Source: a virus
IMG/VR virus record: IMGVR_UViG_3300008107_000423
Location: 1 to 36,941 of that record
Strand: one strand, 5' to 3'
DNA length: 36,941 nt
Part shown: positions 2,541-35,849 of the stretch, in pieces
Position numbering within the stretch: position 1 is the stretch's first letter
Layout: every line of letters starts with the position of its first letter
Program-made: the position numbers and the translations under genes
Notes under the pieces: generated by a model
Seen by the model: only the letters and a program-made list of their open reading frames with translations
Databases searched by the model: none
What the model was told of the DNA's origin: nothing

Positions 2541-2550
2541 CAGTGTTCCC
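2541..2550 (-). repeat. GGGAACNCTG boundary motif, copy 1
   Basis: GGGAACACTG followed by AGGC, 28 bases before the endolysin GTG. It faces a partial copy on the opposite strand at 2559-2566. Confidence 0.85.
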
Positions 2551-7702: not shown

Positions 7703-7915
7703 TCAGGGTTCCCCGCCCTCCCACGCTTCGTCCACGCCGGGCGTGGTGGGATCGTCTGCAACGAACTGGCCATCACCGTCTCGTGCACGCACTCTCCGCC
7801 GCCTTTTGTCAGTGGGCTCTAGCGGCTCAACATTCGCTGCGGGGACAGTTTCCAGGGGCGCCACAAGCGGCACCGGCTCGCCTGGGAACAGCGGCATAAA
7901 AGGTTCTAGGTTCAT
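7703..7915 (-). CDS. Small acidic/proline-rich hypothetical protein
   Basis: 70 residues (MNLEPFMPLFPGEPVPLVAPLETV...). It is Pro/Glu-rich with a basic KRRRRVRARDGD patch at about residues 36-47 and an end WEGGEP. The last codons and TGA are read from the boundary motif (GGG GAA CCC TGA). A hairpin followed by T4 lies upstream at 7931-7955, so it may start a new transcript or be read through. No family is recognised. Confidence 0.5.
   Translation of the reverse strand: MNLEPFMPLFPGEPVPLVAPLETVPAANVEPLEPTDKRRRRVRARDGDGQFVADDPTTPGVDEAWEGGEP
7704..7713 (-). repeat. GGGAACNCTG boundary motif, copy 2
   Basis: GGGAACCCTG then AGGC. The TGA inside is the stop of the upstream small gene, and the next ATG follows after four bases. 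Confidence 0.9.
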
Positions 7916-9812: not shown

Positions 9813-9822
9813 CAGTGTTCCC
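9813..9822 (-). repeat. GGGAACNCTG boundary motif, copy 3
   Basis: GGGAACACTG, six bases after the scaffold stop. The 172-base gap to the capsid ATG holds this copy and the variant at 9677; I see no convincing gene between them. Confidence 0.85.
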
Positions 9823-9828
9823 TGTGGC

Positions 9829-10602
9829 TCAGCTGGGGCTGTTCCAGGCGAGGTCGCGGCGCTGCCCTGGAGTGAGATCCTTGAGGGCAGGGAGGTTGCG
9901 ACCGCTGGGGCCACGGCTGCTGGGCATGCCGGACCCTGAGCCCATGGCGGGCTCAAAGAAGGTGCCGATGACGGCGGATTTATTGGCTAGCTGCTTCATC
10001 CAGGCGTCGGGAGCGATGCGGCCCTTGCCATCGGGGGACTGGATGGGATCGTTCTGGGCGTCAACGACATAGAGGTCGCCGTTGTCGTCAATGCGGAGGT
10101 GCTTTTCGCCTACCAGGGCCATGAAACCATCGAGGAAGGAGCGGCCGTCATCGTCTGCGCCGCTGCGGCCTTTGGCGAGGGTGAAGGCATTTTGGGCGAG
10201 GGTGCGGGTTTGGAGGCGTATGCGTGCTTGCCGTTCACGTTCGGCTTCCTGCTTGGCTTCGGAGACCTGATCATTGGCCTTCTTCTCCAGCCGCATGCGT
10301 TCAGTGGCGGTGAGAGCCTCGCGTTCGCGGAGTTCGCGTTCTAGCTGCTCGGCCTTATCGGTAGCCTGCTTGAAGACTTTGGGATCAATTCCTTCAACCT
10401 GCTTGAGGCGTCGTTCGGCGGCCTTCAGTTGATCCCGGAGCTTGGTGAGGGTTTTCTTGCCGCCTTCACCGAGGGCTTCGTCGTCGTCACTGTCGTTGTC
10501 ACCAGCAGGAGAACCGCCGCCACCATCGCCTTCGCCGTCACCGTCCTGAGTGATGGTCGGATAGATGGAGCGGAGCATTTGCTCCAGAAGTTCGCGTCCC
10601 AT
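9829..10602 (-). CDS. Capsid scaffold protein
   Basis: 257 residues with the layout of GP20-type phage scaffolds. There is an acidic, Gly-rich N-terminus (about residues 18-50), a long charged coiled coil of about 100 residues (LRDQLKAAERRLKQVEG...LERELREREALTATERMRLEKKANDQVSEAKQEAERERQARIRL), and a C-terminal region that ends GRNLPALKDLTPGQRRDLAW. It lies directly before the major capsid gene, the usual order. It would guide prohead assembly and leave the head. The start ATG is 34 bases after a boundary motif. Confidence 0.82.
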   Translation of the reverse strand: MGRELLEQMLRSIYPTITQDGDGEGDGGGGSPAGDNDSDDDEALGEGGKKTLTKLRDQLKAAERRLKQVEGIDPKVFKQATDKAEQLERELREREALTATERMRLEKKANDQVSEAKQEAERERQARIRLQTRTLAQNAFTLAKGRSGADDDGRSFLDGFMALVGEKHLRIDDNGDLYVVDAQNDPIQSPDGKGRIAPDAWMKQLANKSAVIGTFFEPAMGSGSGMPSSRGPSGRNLPALKDLTPGQRRDLAWNSPS

Positions 10603-10624: not shown

Positions 10625-10771
10625 TTAAAGGCTCTTCAGTGTTCCCCTCTGCCCTTGGTGGCCCTTTTGCCGGCGGATCAACGCCATTCGGTTGGAGGCC
10701 ACGCGGAGCGCGAGGGCTTCAAGCAGGGCATCCTCCTTGTCTTCGGTGTCTGGGGGTGCTGGCTGGTTCAT
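10625..10771 (-). CDS. Small hypothetical protein before scaffold
   Basis: 48 residues, MNQPAPPDTEDKEDALLEALALRV..., start coupled to the previous gene by ATGA and stop TAA at 10625. The N-terminal half is acidic and helical, the C-terminal half basic. The boundary motif GGGAACACTG lies inside its last codons and is read there as part of RGTLK. It may be a head accessory, or a short ORF made only by coupling. Confidence 0.5.
   Translation of the reverse strand: MNQPAPPDTEDKEDALLEALALRVASNRMALIRRQKGHQGQRGTLKSL
10637..10646 (-). repeat. GGGAACNCTG boundary motif, copy 4
   Basis: GGGAACACTG then A, inside the last codons of the 48-aa frame and 34 bases before the scaffold ATG. It is the only strict copy read as internal codons. 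Confidence 0.85.
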
Positions 10772-12789: not shown

Positions 12790-12799
12790 CAGTGTTCCC
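12790..12799 (-). repeat. GGGAACNCTG boundary motif, copy 5
   Basis: GGGAACACTG then A, six bases after the stop of the 1003-aa fiber gene and 25 bases before the next ATG. Confidence 0.88.
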
Positions 12800-22396: not shown

Positions 22397-22406
22397 CAGG
22401 GTTCCC
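22397..22406 (-). repeat. GGGAACNCTG boundary motif, copy 6
   Basis: GGGAACCCTG, one base after the stop of the tail terminator candidate and 20 bases before ATG 22376. Confidence 0.88.
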
Positions 22407-23018: not shown

Positions 23019-23028
23019 CAGAGTTCCC
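23019..23028 (-). repeat. GGGAACNCTG boundary motif, copy 7 (minus arm of a divergent pair)
   Basis: GGGAACTCTG pointing to the 22997 gene; it faces copy 8 across eight bases. Confidence 0.88.
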
Positions 23029-23036
23029 CCCGCCAG

Positions 23037-23046
23037 GGGAACCCTG
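23037..23046 (+). repeat. GGGAACNCTG boundary motif, copy 8 (plus arm)
   Basis: GGGAACCCTG on the plus strand, 27 bases before ATG 23074 of the plus-strand gene. Confidence 0.88.
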
Positions 23047-24351: not shown

Positions 24352-24361
24352 CAGCGTTCCC
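24352..24361 (-). repeat. GGGAACNCTG boundary motif, copy 9 (minus arm)
   Basis: GGGAACGCTG, 25 bases before the tail tube ATG. With copy 10 it forms an inverted repeat with identical arms. Confidence 0.88.
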
Positions 24362-24378
24362 GTTGCCGTAACCCACGC

Positions 24379-24388
24379 GGGAACGCTG
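24379..24388 (+). repeat. GGGAACNCTG boundary motif, copy 10 (plus arm)
   Basis: GGGAACGCTG on the plus strand, identical to copy 9 and facing it across 17 bases. The next plus-strand ATG candidates are at 24486 and 24513. Confidence 0.85.
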
Positions 24389-25852: not shown

Positions 25853-25862
25853 CAGCGTTCCC
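25853..25862 (-). repeat. GGGAACNCTG boundary motif, copy 11
   Basis: GGGAACGCTG then GG, nine bases after the upstream stop and 14 bases before ATG 25838. Confidence 0.88.
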
Positions 25863-27390: not shown

Positions 27391-27400
27391 CAGGGTTCCC
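27391..27400 (-). repeat. GGGAACNCTG boundary motif, copy 12
   Basis: GGGAACCCTG then A, four bases after the stop of the zincin-like gene and 19 bases before ATG 27371. Confidence 0.9.
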
Positions 27401-28086: not shown

Positions 28087-28096
28087 CAGGGTTCCC
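28087..28096 (-). repeat. GGGAACNCTG boundary motif, copy 13
   Basis: GGGAACCCTG then ACAGGAG. It lies between the terminator at 28118-28144 and the ATG at 28064, 22 bases before the start. Confidence 0.9.
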
Positions 28097-29518: not shown

Positions 29519-29528
29519 CAGGGTTCCC
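29519..29528 (-). repeat. GGGAACNCTG boundary motif, copy 14
   Basis: GGGAACCCTG then AGGC, four bases after the upstream TAG and 19 bases before ATG 29499. Confidence 0.9.
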
Positions 29529-29918: not shown

Positions 29919-30164
29919 TCAGTGTTCCCCCCAAGCCACCTCGACATCAGGCTGCCTGGCACGCTCGCCCAGCAGGTTCGCCAGCCAATAGCGGCCCTTC
30001 GGATCCAGCGTGCGGGTGAGCTGCTGCGTGAGCCGCAGCCCTTCCTCATCCGGCAGCAGGGTTGCCACACGCCGCAGGCCCATGCGTGCCGCATCCCGAT
30101 CCCTGATCTGGATGCAGACCTGCAAGAGCAGAAACAACCGAAGCGAATCGCTGGGGGGGATCAT
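29919..30164 (-). CDS. Small helical head-region protein
   Basis: 81 residues from ATG 30164 with a GAGG-type ribosome site just upstream; a TTG at 30206 overlapping the previous stop is an alternative. Helical throughout (SLRLFLLLQVCIQIRDRDAARMGLRRVATLLPDEEGLRLTQQL). It ends VAWGEH with its TGA read from the boundary motif. Unknown function. Confidence 0.55.
   Translation of the reverse strand: MIPPSDSLRLFLLLQVCIQIRDRDAARMGLRRVATLLPDEEGLRLTQQLTRTLDPKGRYWLANLLGERARQPDVEVAWGEH
29920..29929 (-). repeat. GGGAACNCTG boundary motif, copy 15
   Basis: GGGAACACTG then AGGC; it contains the TGA stop of the upstream gene (GGG GAA CAC TGA) and lies 24 bases before ATG 29895. Confidence 0.9.
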
Positions 30165-30202: not shown

Positions 30203-31252
30203 TCAAAACCTGACTGCCGGGGCTACCGTCTTCGTCCGCTTCGGATCCTTGTACCGCTCCGATGGCGTGATGGCGTTGAGGGCCTTCTTGAGTTCGGCCG
30301 CCAACCGGGCATCGTCCCAGCCCTTCGCCTCCTGCAGTTCCTTCTGCGCCTGGGCCTGTGATCTCCGCCAGTAGTCGGCATCAAGCAGGATCTCCCGATC
30401 GGCCTTGTTTTTCTCCTCCACCGCTTCGTCCATCACCGGGCTGAGGCTGCAGCGACACCTCGGGTGGGCGTTGCCGGTGATCTCCCCGATCTTGTAGATG
30501 TTGCCGTGACGGCTCACGCACAGCGGGCAGGTTCGTTCGTCCTTGGTGGCGATCCACTGGACGTAGTTGAAGCCCGACTCCTTGGATGTCCGCAGCTGGG
30601 CATCGACATAGGCGTTGGCGAGCTCGCTCCTGGCAATGAGCTCGGCGCGTTGCTTCAGCCCCAGGCGAGCGGTGATGCCATCCGGATCAGTCGACCCCCG
30701 CAGGGCATCCTCAATCCCGCGCTGCATCCGCTTGAACCCGTGGCCCTGGGCCGTGGCGTCGATCACCAGTTGAGTTACCTGGTTCCTGAAACGCAGCGTC
30801 TCCGATTGGATGTACCCCGTGGTGATTTCGCTGGCCGACCACATCGCGACGGTGTTAGGCGCCCCGAACTGCTCCGTGATCGCATCGGTGATCGTCCGCT
30901 GCAGGTCGATCGCCAGGTCGCCGCCGAGAGTCATGGCCGCGCCGAGGTCGTCCTGCAACTGCTGCTGCAGCCGCCTCAGCTCCTCATCCGGCAAAAATCC
31001 TTGCGCTGCATCCACCAGAGCCCGGAGCCTTGAGGAGGTGTCGGCGATGGAGTAGGCCAGGGGCCGGCCACCACTGGCGCTGGTCTGCCCTGGATCGAGG
31101 AACAGCCGATACCAGCGTCGCAGGTCGGCCAGCATCGACTCCAGCGACCGCTCCATCGCCTCGTTCAGGTTCGCGGCGGCCTGGTTGCCGATCAGCTCCA
31201 GCCGGTCGGCGTAGGAGTCAACCAGGCGCTGCTGCTCGGGGCCACTGCTCAT
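30203..31252 (-). CDS. Head morphogenesis protein (MuF / SPP1 gp7 type)
   Basis: 349 residues coupled to the portal gene by ATGA. Helical N-terminal 190 residues; the C-terminal part has the MuF signature: RAELIARSELANAYVDAQ, then DERTCPLCVSRHG (Cys242, Cys245) and NAHPRCRCSLSPV (His263, Cys266, Cys268), a likely zinc site. Such proteins attach to the portal inside the prohead and can enter the cell with DNA. The protein ends soon after, with no toxin-like extension. Confidence 0.85.
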   Translation of the reverse strand: MSSGPEQQRLVDSYADRLELIGNQAAANLNEAMERSLESMLADLRRWYRLFLDPGQTSASGGRPLAYSIADTSSRLRALVDAAQGFLPDEELRRLQQQLQDDLGAAMTLGGDLAIDLQRTITDAITEQFGAPNTVAMWSASEITTGYIQSETLRFRNQVTQLVIDATAQGHGFKRMQRGIEDALRGSTDPDGITARLGLKQRAELIARSELANAYVDAQLRTSKESGFNYVQWIATKDERTCPLCVSRHGNIYKIGEITGNAHPRCRCSLSPVMDEAVEEKNKADREILLDADYWRRSQAQAQKELQEAKGWDDARLAAELKKALNAITPSERYKDPKRTKTVAPAVRF

Positions 31253-32778
31253 TGGACACCGGCAAGGGCGGACTCAGCCGGCACTGTTCCGTCCATGCCC
31301 ATCAGGCCAGGGATCTGATCCAGCCCAGGTGTCTTGGGCCGGTTGGCCTCCCGCTTCCGATCCTCCTCCTCCAGCAGCTTGAGTTCGTCGTCTGCTGTCT
31401 GGTCCGGCGGGAGCATGCCCGCACGTGCCACCAGCTCAACCACCGATTTTCGGGTGAGCAGGCTGGAGTCGTAGAGGTCCTGAGCCGTGTCCAGCTGTTC
31501 CTTGGTGACCGGCTGATCAAACACTCCGCTATCAAGATCAATGCCAGCGCCGGGGACGATGGGTTCGCCGGTGAACTGGCACCAGATCCGGAACAGGCTT
31601 TCCATGGCCGAGCTCTTGCCTTCGGCCATCGATGTGAGGCTGGCCTGCAGCTGTGCGCTCTCCAGCAGGCTCTGGGTGGCCGTCTTCTCGGTGGAACCCG
31701 ACAGCAGGAAGTTCATCGTCTGCCTATCGATTAGGTTCTCGATGTGTTTCAGGTGCTCAACATGCTGCGCCAGGCTGCTGCCGGCTACTTCTTCGAACGC
31801 GAAGCTGCCATCCACCGGCAAGTCCAAGCCGCTGTTCGGGCCGAGGATCATCGTCGGCGTGCTGCCATTAGGGCCCGTATTGAGCATGCCCTTCCGCACC
31901 GGCACCGGCATGGCGGTCTTGTGCAGCAGTTCTTTCAGGTCGCTGTACTCGCGGAACCAGTCCAGGGTGAGGTTTGCAAGCGAAAGCAGAGGCAGCTGAC
32001 CACGCCCAAAACCAGCCCGGCTGCCGCTGTACCAGACAACCGGTGGATTGTTCATTGGATTATTCCTTGAGTCCAAGAACTGGCCCTTGAGTTCTTCCCC
32101 GTTATCGTCAAGGACGGCTTCAACACGCAGTCCAGTCATTCCCTCCACCAGCTTCACGACTCTCCATTCGCCGCGGAACATGACGCGATAGCGGGGCTCA
32201 ATCTCAACCCCATAATCTCCCTTTTCTACCTCACTCCATTCAAGAATGGAAACTGCTACTGGTAGATCGATGCCTTGTACCTTTTCGGTTCGCCAGTTGA
32301 CGACGTTTTGCCGCAAAGCATAGGCAAGATAGGGACGTCTTCCGGTGCTTATCTCGTTGGTTCGATCACCGGCCTGCCCTCTTGGCATGTCAACCGTGAG
32401 CAGCACGCCGCCATCGCGCAGCGACATGGCATCTGCCATCATCCAGTAGGCCTTGAGGCTGTTACCGTCTGAATCGATGTTTGACTGGTTGGCGCGGAGC
32501 AGATCCGGGGCATCCCGCAGCTCGAAGCGACTCAGCGCACCGGCGTAGGCAACGATTGCATCACGGTAAAACGATGGATAGCTGCTACGAAGTAGTCGGT
32601 TCTTATATGCTTGCGGCGGCTCTTTTGGTTCCTTCGGCAGGTACGCTTCCTTGCCATTGCGCAGCAGCTCCCAGCAATCGTCGGCAAGTTGTAGTTCTTT
32701 GGTTACATCAGCAAGCGCCGGATGCACGAACGACGGCAGGCTGTGATCCTTGGTCGGATGCGAGATCGTCTGCAGCAC
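31249..32778 (-). CDS. Portal protein (possibly DUF4055-type)
   Basis: 509 residues from GTG 32778. The N-terminus (SLPSFVHPALADVTKELQLADDCWELLRNGKEAYLPKEPKEPPQAYKNRLLRSSYPSFYRDAIVAYAG) matches from memory a phage portal family known as DUF4055. It continues with a beta-rich middle (PPVVWYSGSRAGFGRGQLPLLSLANLTLDWFREYSDLKELLHKTAMPV) and a C-terminal helical crown. It forms the ring through which DNA is packed. The order terminase, sigma-like, portal, MuF is otherwise normal. A GGGAAC overlaps the start codon. Confidence 0.8.
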   Translation of the reverse strand: MLQTISHPTKDHSLPSFVHPALADVTKELQLADDCWELLRNGKEAYLPKEPKEPPQAYKNRLLRSSYPSFYRDAIVAYAGALSRFELRDAPDLLRANQSNIDSDGNSLKAYWMMADAMSLRDGGVLLTVDMPRGQAGDRTNEISTGRRPYLAYALRQNVVNWRTEKVQGIDLPVAVSILEWSEVEKGDYGVEIEPRYRVMFRGEWRVVKLVEGMTGLRVEAVLDDNGEELKGQFLDSRNNPMNNPPVVWYSGSRAGFGRGQLPLLSLANLTLDWFREYSDLKELLHKTAMPVPVRKGMLNTGPNGSTPTMILGPNSGLDLPVDGSFAFEEVAGSSLAQHVEHLKHIENLIDRQTMNFLLSGSTEKTATQSLLESAQLQASLTSMAEGKSSAMESLFRIWCQFTGEPIVPGAGIDLDSGVFDQPVTKEQLDTAQDLYDSSLLTRKSVVELVARAGMLPPDQTADDELKLLEEEDRKREANRPKTPGLDQIPGLMGMDGTVPAESALAGVQ

Positions 32779-32805: not shown

Positions 32806-33801
32806 TCAGGGTTCCCCATTTGTTTCGTCCGGTTCGATCATCATGGTGAATAGATCGGCCTGCACGGCATCTGCCATCAATTCGGATGCGCTGCGACGTG
32901 TGGCGCGGTTCATGCGTCGCGGCTTACTGCTGTTTGAAGCCAGCACCTCAAACCCCAGAGGCATCAGCTCCATCCCGCCGGTGGCCCTGTTTCCCACCAG
33001 CGCTCGCACCTTGCTCCTGAACTGCTGCAGCGGCCCGTGTGGGATCGGTATGCGGCGAGGGTTGCCCCAGAACTCTTCGATCGCTTTCCGGTCGGCCTTG
33101 CAGATCGCGCCATAGGCCTGCTCCAGTACCGCCCACGCCATCCGCTCCCGCTCTGTCGCCTGTTCGTCCTCCTCGGCGATCACAAGCTGGTCATCTAGTC
33201 GGTCGCTGGCAGGTTCGTGTTTGTGCTCCAGCTCGACTGTGCCCTTGTGGCAGCCAAGGATCTCCTGCACATCGGAGACCGTGATCCGCTGCCCGTCCGC
33301 CACCATCCGATCGCAGACTTGCTGCGGCCTCAGGCCCTGCTGGGTGAGGCGCCGCACCGCGGGCCCAAGTTCCCGCCAGTAATGGGGAAACTTGATGGCG
33401 AAGGTTTTGTCGCGGATGAATTGCTTCATGGCGCCCTTAATGAACGGCACTGCGAAGCTGCTGAGGGCATAGGCCCTGCCGGTGATCGGGTTGATCCGCT
33501 CCGGGTCGTAGAGCCGGCATGCCTTCAGCAGCCCCACCCATGCCGGCGTCTCCAGCTCGGCCACCGCCATCCCGATCGAGCGTGCGAAGCGGTTGGCGCA
33601 GTCCATCGCCAGGAGCTGGTTCTTAACGGCAAGCTGCTCGCTGTGCTCGGTGGGTGGTGGGAACTGGCCGAGTTTCGACAGGTCCGGCTGTTGGCCGCTG
33701 GAGGTGGCTGCGGCCGCCGGCTTCCGCTTGGTGGTGCTGGGCGCCCGTGCCGGCGGCCGGATGCTGTTGGTGGGCTTGCTGGTGCGTGACTGGGTTGCCA
33801 T
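32806..33801 (-). CDS. Sigma-70-like protein inside the packaging operon
   Basis: 331 residues from ATG 33801, seven bases after the terminase stop. Residues 1-50 are Pro/Ser/Thr-rich. Residues about 56-145 resemble sigma region 2: NRFARSIGMAVAELETPAWVGLLKACRLYDP, then YALSSFAVPFIKGAMKQFIRDK and IKFPHYWREL, like the region 2.3/2.4 blocks that contact the -10 element. A region 3-like segment follows (VRRLTQQGLRPQQVCDR...VQEILGCHKGTVELE). The last third may hold a reduced region 4 (LEQAYGAICKADRKAIEEFWGN). It may direct host RNA polymerase to phage promoters. It ends NGEP with its stop in the boundary motif. Confidence 0.7.
   Translation of the reverse strand: MATQSRTSKPTNSIRPPARAPSTTKRKPAAAATSSGQQPDLSKLGQFPPPTEHSEQLAVKNQLLAMDCANRFARSIGMAVAELETPAWVGLLKACRLYDPERINPITGRAYALSSFAVPFIKGAMKQFIRDKTFAIKFPHYWRELGPAVRRLTQQGLRPQQVCDRMVADGQRITVSDVQEILGCHKGTVELEHKHEPASDRLDDQLVIAEEDEQATERERMAWAVLEQAYGAICKADRKAIEEFWGNPRRIPIPHGPLQQFRSKVRALVGNRATGGMELMPLGFEVLASNSSKPRRMNRATRRSASELMADAVQADLFTMMIEPDETNGEP
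32807..32816 (-). repeat. GGGAACNCTG boundary motif, copy 16
   Basis: GGGAACCCTG then A, overlapping the TGA of the sigma-like gene (GGG GAA CCC TGA) and 28 bases before the portal GTG. Confidence 0.9.
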
Positions 33802-33808
33802 GGGGAGA

Positions 33809-35362
33809 TCAGGAGTAGATGTTTTCGTCATCGTCATCAGCGACGGCATAGTCGCCAGCGCTGTAGCCATAGCTGACGGTGGTGAAGCGCATAGGGCCGG
33901 TGCCGGCGGCGAAGTTCAGCACCTGCGACGTCTCGTCCACCAGGTCGTCAAACGTGCCCGATGGGAACTCCAGCAACTGGCCCACGTACTCTGCCCGCCA
34001 TGGCGCATGGCGATGTATGAACACACGGCGCTGCTTGAACTGCACCGCAGCAGCTTCCGCTCGGGCGACCTTGCCGCCCATCGGATCCACCTCGATCACG
34101 GAATAGCCCCGAGCCTCCCGCTTCAGCGTGTCGATAATCGCCGAGCCGTTCGCCTTGTCTTCTACCAGCAGCGTGTCGAACTTCCACGCGGGCTGTAGCG
34201 CTCGCAGGGTGTCAAGGGTGTCGTTAAAGCCCATCCGGCGATTGATCTGATCCAGCCGGTACATCGCCTCCTGTGTCTGCAGCCACATGCCGATGCCCAC
34301 CATGTCGGTGCCGGCGGAATCCTTGAATGTTGCGTCAAGGCTGGCAATACGCCGAATCCCTACATCCGTCAGCACTACATCATTAGGCAATCCAGTCTCA
34401 CCGGGCAAGATGAAGTAGCCAATGTGGTCGGTTTTGAATATCGTCCCCTGCGCATCCGTCGGATCTTGCTGATAGATCGCATCCCAGTCACGGGCTGGGG
34501 TGTTGGCTTTCTTCCTGCGGATCCACCGCTCGTCGTAGCGGGTCGGGTCCAGCGCTTCACCAGGCTGCCGGTGGTCACGTTCCCTTGTGACCGTCTTGGG
34601 CAGCAACTTGATGTTGTTCGCCGGCTTCGCCTCAATCGGCAAGCTGACCACGTGCCATGGCTCGCACTCTTCATCCAGTCCTTCCTTCTCTAGTTCCTCG
34701 TTCTTCTTGAGCAGGTAGCCGATAAGGTCGAGCTTGTGCCAGCGCGTATGAATGATGACCTTTGCATCATTCGGTTCTTCCCTGGTGTTCAGTACTGAAT
34801 CCCACCAGTTATGAACCTGCCGGCGGACCGCGGCAGAGTCCGCTTCTTCCCGGCCCTTGATCGGGTCGTCGACGATCAGCAGATCAGCCGGCATCCCCGT
34901 TCCCTTGCCGATGCCAGCGACCCACACTCCTCCGCCCTCGTGCGTCTTCCATCGCTCTTTGCCGGCAGCGCTCGGGTCAAGGGTGCCGCCTGATGCCACG
35001 AAGTAGTCGCGGCACGCCTGGCCAAACTCCGTCGCCAGGGTGTTGCTATGGGCGCCGATGCCAACGGTGCGCGATGGGTAGCGGCGGACGAAGTAAGCCG
35101 GAAGGAAGCGGCTGAAGATGGTGGACTTGAAGTGCCGCGGGGGAAGTTCAACCATCGCTCGCGGCAGCTTGCCATCAGCGATCTGCTGGCCAATGGCGAT
35201 TAGACGTTCGGTGTGCTTAGAAAACCCAAAGACAGGGAAAACGTCGGCAATGAACTCGCGGAATGATTTTGTATATGATTCGGATTTTGTCTTAGGAGCG
35301 ACTTTTTTTTTGCTCAGCTCCAGCCTGGCAATCGCCGCGCCAATCGGATCAGCCGTCAGCAT
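33809..35362 (-). CDS. terL: Terminase large subunit
   Basis: 517 residues from ATG 35362, inside the end of the small subunit gene. ATPase: Walker A-like PPRHFKST (residues 74-81, Phe replacing the usual Gly), Walker B LLIVDDP (161-167) and TRWH coupling motif (206-209). Nuclease: Asp343 in SLDATFK, Glu401/Asp402 in LVEDKANG, and Asp473 near FDDLVDE. These are the expected acidic residues for an RNase H-fold. It packages DNA into the prohead. A run of nine A codes SKKK near residue 18, a possible slippage spot. The protein ends with an acidic tail. Confidence 0.93.
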   Translation of the reverse strand: MLTADPIGAAIARLELSKKKVAPKTKSESYTKSFREFIADVFPVFGFSKHTERLIAIGQQIADGKLPRAMVELPPRHFKSTIFSRFLPAYFVRRYPSRTVGIGAHSNTLATEFGQACRDYFVASGGTLDPSAAGKERWKTHEGGGVWVAGIGKGTGMPADLLIVDDPIKGREEADSAAVRRQVHNWWDSVLNTREEPNDAKVIIHTRWHKLDLIGYLLKKNEELEKEGLDEECEPWHVVSLPIEAKPANNIKLLPKTVTRERDHRQPGEALDPTRYDERWIRRKKANTPARDWDAIYQQDPTDAQGTIFKTDHIGYFILPGETGLPNDVVLTDVGIRRIASLDATFKDSAGTDMVGIGMWLQTQEAMYRLDQINRRMGFNDTLDTLRALQPAWKFDTLLVEDKANGSAIIDTLKREARGYSVIEVDPMGGKVARAEAAAVQFKQRRVFIHRHAPWRAEYVGQLLEFPSGTFDDLVDETSQVLNFAAGTGPMRFTTVSYGYSAGDYAVADDDDENIYS

Positions 35363-35849
35363 CGGTTTCTTGCTGCGGCAGCACGTCACCCAGACCGCGG
35401 GCCTGAAGCTGCAGCAACACTTCGTGCTTCTGTTCGACGGTCAGGGATTGCGTGGCTTCAATCGCAGAAACGACGCCATCCATTTGCCGCTGCACCGCAC
35501 GTTTTGCGGCGGCATTGTCGGACCAATTATGGCGCCAGTGGACAGAATGAGTGAGAAGCCACTGCGAGTCTTTGGAATCTCCGCCGTGGATCTTTTGGAG
35601 GTGGGATAGTTCGCCCTCTGCGCGGCCCTCTTGAACTGCCGCCAAAAACGCCATTTCAAGCTCATCGCCAGTTCCCGCCTTTGCACGGCTGACCCACAGC
35701 CGCCATGCCTGCTCTGAAATGCCACAGGCCGCGGCGATCGTCTTGTTCGGTGCGCCCGAAGGGACCAGCTTGCGCACCTTCTCAATCAGCTCAGGGGTGA
35801 GCTTGCGCTTTCGGCCGGCTTCGGAGGTGGTGGCGAGTGAGGATGTCAC
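35349..35849 (-). CDS. terS: Terminase small subunit candidate
   Basis: 166 residues from GTG 35849; an upstream TTG at 35876 is possible but would place the start in the predicted promoter. The N-terminal half has an HTH: LTPELIEKVRKLVPSGAPNKTIAAACGISEQAWRLWVSRAK, typical of DNA-binding small terminase subunits. A helical oligomerisation part and an acidic tail (LPQQETDADG) follow. It overlaps and precedes terL, the usual pair. Confidence 0.8.
   Translation of the reverse strand: MTSSLATTSEAGRKRKLTPELIEKVRKLVPSGAPNKTIAAACGISEQAWRLWVSRAKAGTGDELEMAFLAAVQEGRAEGELSHLQKIHGGDSKDSQWLLTHSVHWRHNWSDNAAAKRAVQRQMDGVVSAIEATQSLTVEQKHEVLLQLQARGLGDVLPQQETDADG

Follow-up and report, generated by a model that had tools for sequence, protein, structure and literature searches.

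gp55, the late sigma factor of phage T4, consists of sigma domain 2 only, uses no -35 element, and ends in a C-terminal clamp epitope carried on a variable linker (PMC2988020, PMC7892883). Clamp-activated transcription has been established for T4-type late genes, and other natural cases are expected on the basis of a structural study (PMC7892883). Bacterial SigB promoters harbor GGG[A/T]A[A/T] at -10 (PMC8346170), and a cyanobacterial SigF promoter harbors GGTAA at -12 (PMC2758279). A phage sigma factor gene is already known by name from S-CBS2, S-CRES1, S-CRES3, and P-SS2, in all of which it lies immediately after the terminase large subunit gene (terL). The P-SS2 protein has been called a group 3 sigma factor that probably serves one specific regulon (PMC2784084). 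In the literature searched, no sliding-clamp or late-promoter account of these phages was found.

The window (the whole 36,941-nt stretch of viral DNA analyzed here, for which the relatives point to a cyanobacterial host) encodes a member of this family. On the preferred reading, to which a probability of about 0.66 is assigned, the protein is a gp55-like, clamp-tethered late sigma factor that acts on extended -10-only promoters and couples late transcription to replication, probably through the host clamp. New here are the reading of a family-wide motif as a putative -10 element, the apparent absence of a normal region 4, and a predicted clamp-binding tail.

The Sigma Factor Locus and Its Distribution

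The sigma gene of the window sits between terL and the portal gene, and all three are encoded on the minus strand. The features of the locus are as follows.

33809..35389, minus strand: terminase large subunit, terL (PHROG_38, E 1.4e-75)
32806..33801, minus strand: sigma-70-family protein gene, 331 aa, ATG at 33801 (PHROG 36098, SigF profile match, sigma fold)
33244..33657, minus strand: sigma regions 2 and 3, ~residues 49-186 (pLDDT and VIA-align)
32863..33222, minus strand: C-terminal half at the place of region 4 (second AlphaFold model: three helices, then a low-confidence linker)
32848..32862, minus strand: predicted clamp-binding motif QADLF, residues 314-318 (matches the published beta-clamp motif)
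31249..32778, minus strand: portal protein (PHROG_145, E 3e-71)

The start codon at 33801 lies ~10 nt past the terL stop. An alternative in-frame ATG at 33870 would yield a 354-residue version, which is less likely because it overlaps terL out of frame. In a relative contig that is 99.6% identical to the window (L002), a 2-base insertion at ~10193-10195, early in the sigma gene, shifts the frame and is either an assembly error or the mark of a broken copy.

Two scans of viral contigs revealed more than 100 further loci in uncultured relatives. Within one lineage of cyanosiphophages it is a standard gene, a point overlooked by the first-pass annotation of this DNA, and portal-family contigs without it also end before terL. 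In the freshwater-like group, the sigma protein has ~280-370 aa and the portal gene is next or nearby, while in the marine group the protein has ~206-270 aa and the portal gene is several kb further on; these labels are taken from isolates and apply only loosely to uncultured contigs. Among bacterial genomes, a scan for the sigma family returned one metagenome-assembled contig only, and larger family alignments gave no usable pattern.

A second, RpoD-like sigma is encoded in the relatives L004, L145, L150, G003, G007, and G009, and in marine phages it lies beside ssb in the early region. No second sigma is present within the window, which is a fragment. Marine relatives also harbor, upstream of terL, a gene annotated as SPT5 transcription elongation factor (S-CRES1, L004:4373-4636; S-CRES3, gp12).

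Sigma Identity and Fold

The gene encodes a real sigma-70-family protein with a match above chance, as had been proposed from its translation. The window protein matches PHROG 36098 (“RNA polymerase sigma factor”) with E 1.1e-17, and this family is matched by 34 of 34 aligned relatives (best 6e-119). Pfam Sigma70_r2 is matched by 29 of the 34 (best 2e-12), the window protein taken singly falling under its cut-off. When the family profile is compared with solved sigma factors, SigF (1l0o) is found first (E 6e-18), and SigF and SigB are the closest by sequence profile.

Structure prediction against the sigma regions, a check that the first-pass annotation had suggested, finds a sigma fold over regions 2-3. 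The AlphaFold model of the window protein has high pLDDT across sigma2-sigma3 (residues ~49-186), and its best Foldseek structural neighbors are sigma factors (1.8e-5). VIA-align superimposes the model on sigma domain 2 with Z 10-12.5 and 1.6-2.1 A over 71-77 residues, and its range with sigmaA/sigma70 is 49-186. Region 3 is covered by this structural alignment as well as by the family profile, which aligns through region 3 of SigF/SigA; the Pfam region 3 model scores weakly in the family. The protein is best read as a SigB/SigF-type (group 3) late sigma, in a comparison with solved sigma factors and with PHROG families, of which those matched by the relatives carry only the name sigma factor.

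Region 4 and the C-Terminal Tail

The models suggest that region 4 has been lost or has degenerated, in agreement with the earlier view that it is reduced or replaced. No significant Pfam region 4 match is found among 34 members, the sole weak one having E 0.018, and Foldseek with the C-terminal half modeled alone gives no match below E 2. VIA-align of this half against a sigma4 domain is weak (Z 6.6 over 60 residues) and leaves part of the domain unaligned. In the model of the half alone, a short loop stands in for the further helix that a helix-turn-helix requires, and no complete helix-turn-helix is recognizable.

The protein ends in a feature that the first-pass annotation had overlooked. 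In 60 of 70 non-redundant family members, the final 70 residues contain QxxL[F/L], a predicted beta-clamp-binding motif by the bacterial definition (PMC11139829), against 5% of shuffled tails. Freshwater members often carry it as QLDLF or QLGLF, and marine members often as QGSLF directly before the stop codon. In S-CBS2 (L149/L150, record ~57400-57570), the 206-aa gene model of the sigma stops short and misses the tail, while ...GRLQGSLF-stop follows in a different reading frame; this points to a frame change, either in the record or in the gene itself. No phage-encoded beta clamp was found in nine contigs.

The tail could also belong to a late sigma that reads the -10 motif described below while QxxLF provides no working clamp tether, serving another partner or persisting as a weak ancestral feature. 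P-SS2 and its close relatives keep the sigma gene and have no QxxL[F/L] tail, and position 2 of the marine tails is often G, A, or P, which is weaker than QLxLF. The latter point is not decisive, as the clamp motif of Pol III alpha itself, QADMF, is weak yet working (PMC11139829). Against a tail without tethering function, Q and L[F/L] are kept in the 60 divergent tails despite the variable linker that precedes them, the marine members place the motif exactly at the C-terminus, and none of six RpoD-like sigmas of cyanosiphophages has it. This alternative is possible but unlikely, and the motif is read here as a putative clamp-binding tail.

A Motif Shared by the Sigma-Encoding Phages

The repeated motif that had been noticed in the operon of the sigma gene is real, with 16 exact GGGAACNCTG copies in the window versus 0.46 expected. 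The motif is numbered with its invariant T at -7 (T-7), which assumes a transcription start 6-7 nt after this T, and the distances to start codons below are counted from T-7.

32807..32816, minus strand: GGGAACCCTG, overlapping the stop codon of sigma, ahead of portal; GTG at 29 nt
29920..29929, minus strand: GGGAACACTG, ATG at 25 nt
29519..29528, minus strand: GGGAACCCTG, ATG at 20 nt
28087..28096, minus strand: GGGAACCCTG, ATG at 23 nt
27391..27400, minus strand: GGGAACCCTG, ATG at 20 nt
25853..25862, minus strand: GGGAACGCTG, ATG at 15 or 24 nt
24352..24361, minus strand: GGGAACGCTG, before a tail protein; ATG at 26 nt
23019..23028, minus strand: GGGAACTCTG, ATG at 22 nt (short ORF)
22397..22406, minus strand: GGGAACCCTG, ATG at 21 nt; a small gene follows, and then the tape-measure gene
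12790..12799, minus strand: GGGAACACTG, ATG at 26 nt
10637..10646, minus strand: GGGAACACTG, ahead of the head scaffolding gene; ATG at 35 nt
9813..9822, minus strand: GGGAACACTG, no start codon of an ORF of at least 40 aa within 65 nt
7704..7713, minus strand: GGGAACCCTG, ATG at 5 nt
2541..2550, minus strand: GGGAACACTG, before an endolysin-like gene; GTG at 29 nt
23037..23046, plus strand: GGGAACCCTG, inverted against the 23019 copy
24379..24388, plus strand: GGGAACGCTG, inverted against the 24352 copy

The genes headed by these copies include those for the portal, a tail protein, and the scaffolding protein, as well as an endolysin-like gene. A start codon follows T-7 by 5-35 nt for 13 of the 14 minus-strand copies, and by 15-29 nt for most; read as a -10 element, the copy at 7704 would possibly give a leaderless message. 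Upstream of the sigma gene, the motif is absent from the 3.1 kb of the window and from the L002 sequence that overlaps this stretch and extends beyond it.

Inverted-repeat motif pairs, 8-19 nt apart, are found at 23019-23046 and 24352-24388 of the window and at 9312-9350 of L077; they could be hairpins or divergent starts. The two plus-strand copies of the window count against the promoter reading developed below. A search of viral contigs for the inverted-repeat form returned seven stretches, one of which, L144, belongs to the same contig as L077. Several copies also have another short word, TAACCC, beside them (near 10637, 23019, 24379, and 25853 in the window; also in L077).

Across the family, the motif is GGNANNCTR, represented by GGGAACNCTG in the window, GGGAAAACT in freshwater relatives, and GGNATACTA in marine relatives, and the diverged forms align without gaps. 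The exact 10-mer is clearly over background only in relatives whose sigma is at least 49% identical. Restriction of the motif to the clade of the window was considered and rejected, since a word scan of gene gaps showed diverged forms, with GGGAAAACT present in other freshwater clades on the sigma strand. In the late gaps of three annotated marine genomes, GGAATACTA, GGCATACTAG, GGGAAAACTA, and GGGAACACTAG were seen by inspection.

Unsupervised EM without a seed on 80 late-gene gaps of S-CRES1, S-CRES3, and S-CBS2 recovers GGnAtaCTAg (LLR 253 vs 34-43 shuffled), and the motif is also recovered from each of these genomes singly. The same core emerges from the window and several freshwater clades; EM gave no convincing motif in the L078, L093, L013, L065, and L069 clades, where usable gaps are few. 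GGNANNCTR occurs on the coding strand in 55/80 marine late gaps and on the other strand in 3/80, and the strand counts of GGNANNCTA are 30/5, 32/5, and 38/5. In nine freshwater contigs, GGGAAAACT occurs 68 times in the 15 kb downstream of sigma and once in the 15 kb upstream (p 8e-18), the first copy usually being at the 3′ end of the sigma gene. GGTAGACTG precedes many marine sigma genes.

Three control cyanosiphophages that have an RpoD-like sigma only (KBS-S-2A, S-LBS1, and S-CBS3), and that belong to another siphophage lineage with the same host genus, show GGNANNCTR in 3/41 gaps on the coding strand and in 1/41 on the other, and EM on their gaps finds no such motif. The co-occurrence of gene and motif holds in that both are present in relatives with enough late gaps, while these three phages without the terL-linked sigma have no motif; it is partly a matter of shared ancestry. 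The association that the first-pass annotation had imagined between sigma and motif withstands the co-occurrence test which that annotation had proposed as refuting, and recognition of the motif by the sigma with host core polymerase is suggested. The motif is provisionally assigned to the terL-linked sigma rather than to another factor.

It is improbable that the motif is instead a promoter or operator for host SigA or SigF or for another phage regulator, with the terL-linked sigma serving other genes. Some relatives do encode the second, RpoD-like sigma, and correlation cannot single out the recognizer. However, the control phages with only an RpoD-like sigma have no motif, and C-8 and the GG at -14/-13 are unlike the host -10 element and like the SigB/SigF class. 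Recognition by the terL-linked sigma is preferred.

Register of the Putative Promoter

In the information profile of the motif, only about -16 to -6 carries information; nothing is conserved near -35, and the invariant A and T of the motif fit the -11 and -7 register. A-11 and T-7 are the bases captured by sigma region 2 in other -10 elements. In marine gaps, start codons are mostly 20-26 nt after T-7 (mode 21). At nine marine gaps the motif sits just after intrinsic terminators, so that a new transcription start is needed there. GGNANNCTR thus reads as a putative SigB/SigF-type -10 element and not as a -35 element, on account of the A/T register and the likeness to the -10 elements of SigB/SigF, the class nearest to the protein.

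Part of this pattern would also suit a signal at the RNA level, in which the motif is a leader or start-associated element of translation or mRNA processing and the sigma reads other sites. The spacing to the start codon is tight, with its mode at 21 nt, the motif often overlaps or adjoins the upstream stop codon, and it is strictly co-oriented with the genes in relatives. Yet 20-26 nt is too far upstream for a Shine-Dalgarno-type ribosome contact, and placement directly after intrinsic terminators, confinement of the freshwater motif to genes downstream of sigma, the invariance of A-11 and T-7 as in -10 elements, and absence from cyanosiphophages of the same host genus all argue against such a signal. 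An RNA-level role is rated as distinctly improbable relative to the -10 reading.

The version put forward by the first-pass annotation, in which the GGAAC core is the -35 element of an ECF-like sigma, is barely credible despite the likeness of GGAAC to ECF -35 elements, since the motif aligns as a -10 element with nothing near -35, no conserved partner element lies 16-20 nt downstream in the window, the start codons of 13/14 minus-strand copies are too near, and the protein has region 3, which ECF sigmas do not, and no normal region 4. On the same grounds, the protein does not fit the ECF class, whose members have regions 2 and 4 only and a GGAAC -35 element. The objection that the spacing argues against a plain -35 role is resolved by the -10 reading.

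Proposed Mechanism

It is hypothesized that sigma regions 2-3 place the host core RNA polymerase on late promoters that consist of the extended -10 element GGNANNCTR alone, one ahead of many virion genes. In the window promoter, GGGAACNCTG, the bases would be G-15 to G-13, A-12, A-11, variable -10/-9, C-8, T-7, and G-6, with transcription starting 6-7 nt after T-7. No -35 element would be used because region 4 is apparently gone or degenerate. The C-terminal motif may bind DnaN, the replication clamp of the host, and so tether the polymerase to it; late transcription would thereby be coupled to DNA replication, as achieved by T4 gp55 with gp45.

A broader evolutionary reading is given somewhat better than even odds. 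The family would represent an independently evolved, replication-coupled late switch outside the T4-like phages, in which a SigB/SigF-derived sigma has had its -35 domain replaced by a host-clamp tether and acts on -10-only promoters throughout a large lineage of cyanobacterial siphophages. If true, this would be a second natural case of clamp-activated transcription, one that relies on a sigma factor of group 3 and, probably, on the clamp of the host itself. A gene that has so far only been named gains a proposed function, and the putative late-promoter consensus could be used to mark late genes in many uncultured phages from freshwater.

Comparison with Known Systems

Start-associated repeats of cluster K mycobacteriophages are short, asymmetric sequences located upstream of many phage genes, a few bases from their start codons. 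The motif described here is likewise short and asymmetric and precedes many genes; however, it lies ~20 nt from the start codon, is associated with late genes, and fits a -10 register.

The “type III rpoS” of P-SS2 and the “SigF” of S-CBS2 and the S-CRES phages are the same gene, located immediately after terL. The P-SS2 paper and the S-CBS2/S-CRES records give the gene name only and describe no promoter motif or clamp tail. The likeness to bacterial SigB/SigF of group 3 extends from the sequence profile to the GGG[A/T]A[A/T] or GGTAA class of -10 elements. In contrast, bacterial SigB/SigF keep region 4 and a -35/-32 element, whereas the phage family shows neither.

Several features set the family apart from T4 gp55. 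The family retains region 3, and its closest relatives are SigF and SigB. The putative promoter is GGNANNCTR, in contrast to the AT-rich promoter of T4. The tail carries a bacterial beta-clamp motif, without a phage clamp in the nine contigs, and a scan for other C-terminal clamp motifs gave no convincing gp33-like partner. The phages are siphophages rather than T4-like. The protein is proposed to work like gp55 but is not filed as its homologue because, in the comparisons made, its nearest relatives are SigF/SigB. The shared features are nonetheless those of the T4 late system, in which gp55 acts with the clamp gp45 and the coactivator gp33 (PMC2988020, PMC7892883): a late sigma-70-family factor with an abnormal or absent region 4, -10-like promoters without a -35 element, as judged here by sequence alone, and a C-terminal clamp-binding tail on a variable linker, as predicted here from the protein sequences.
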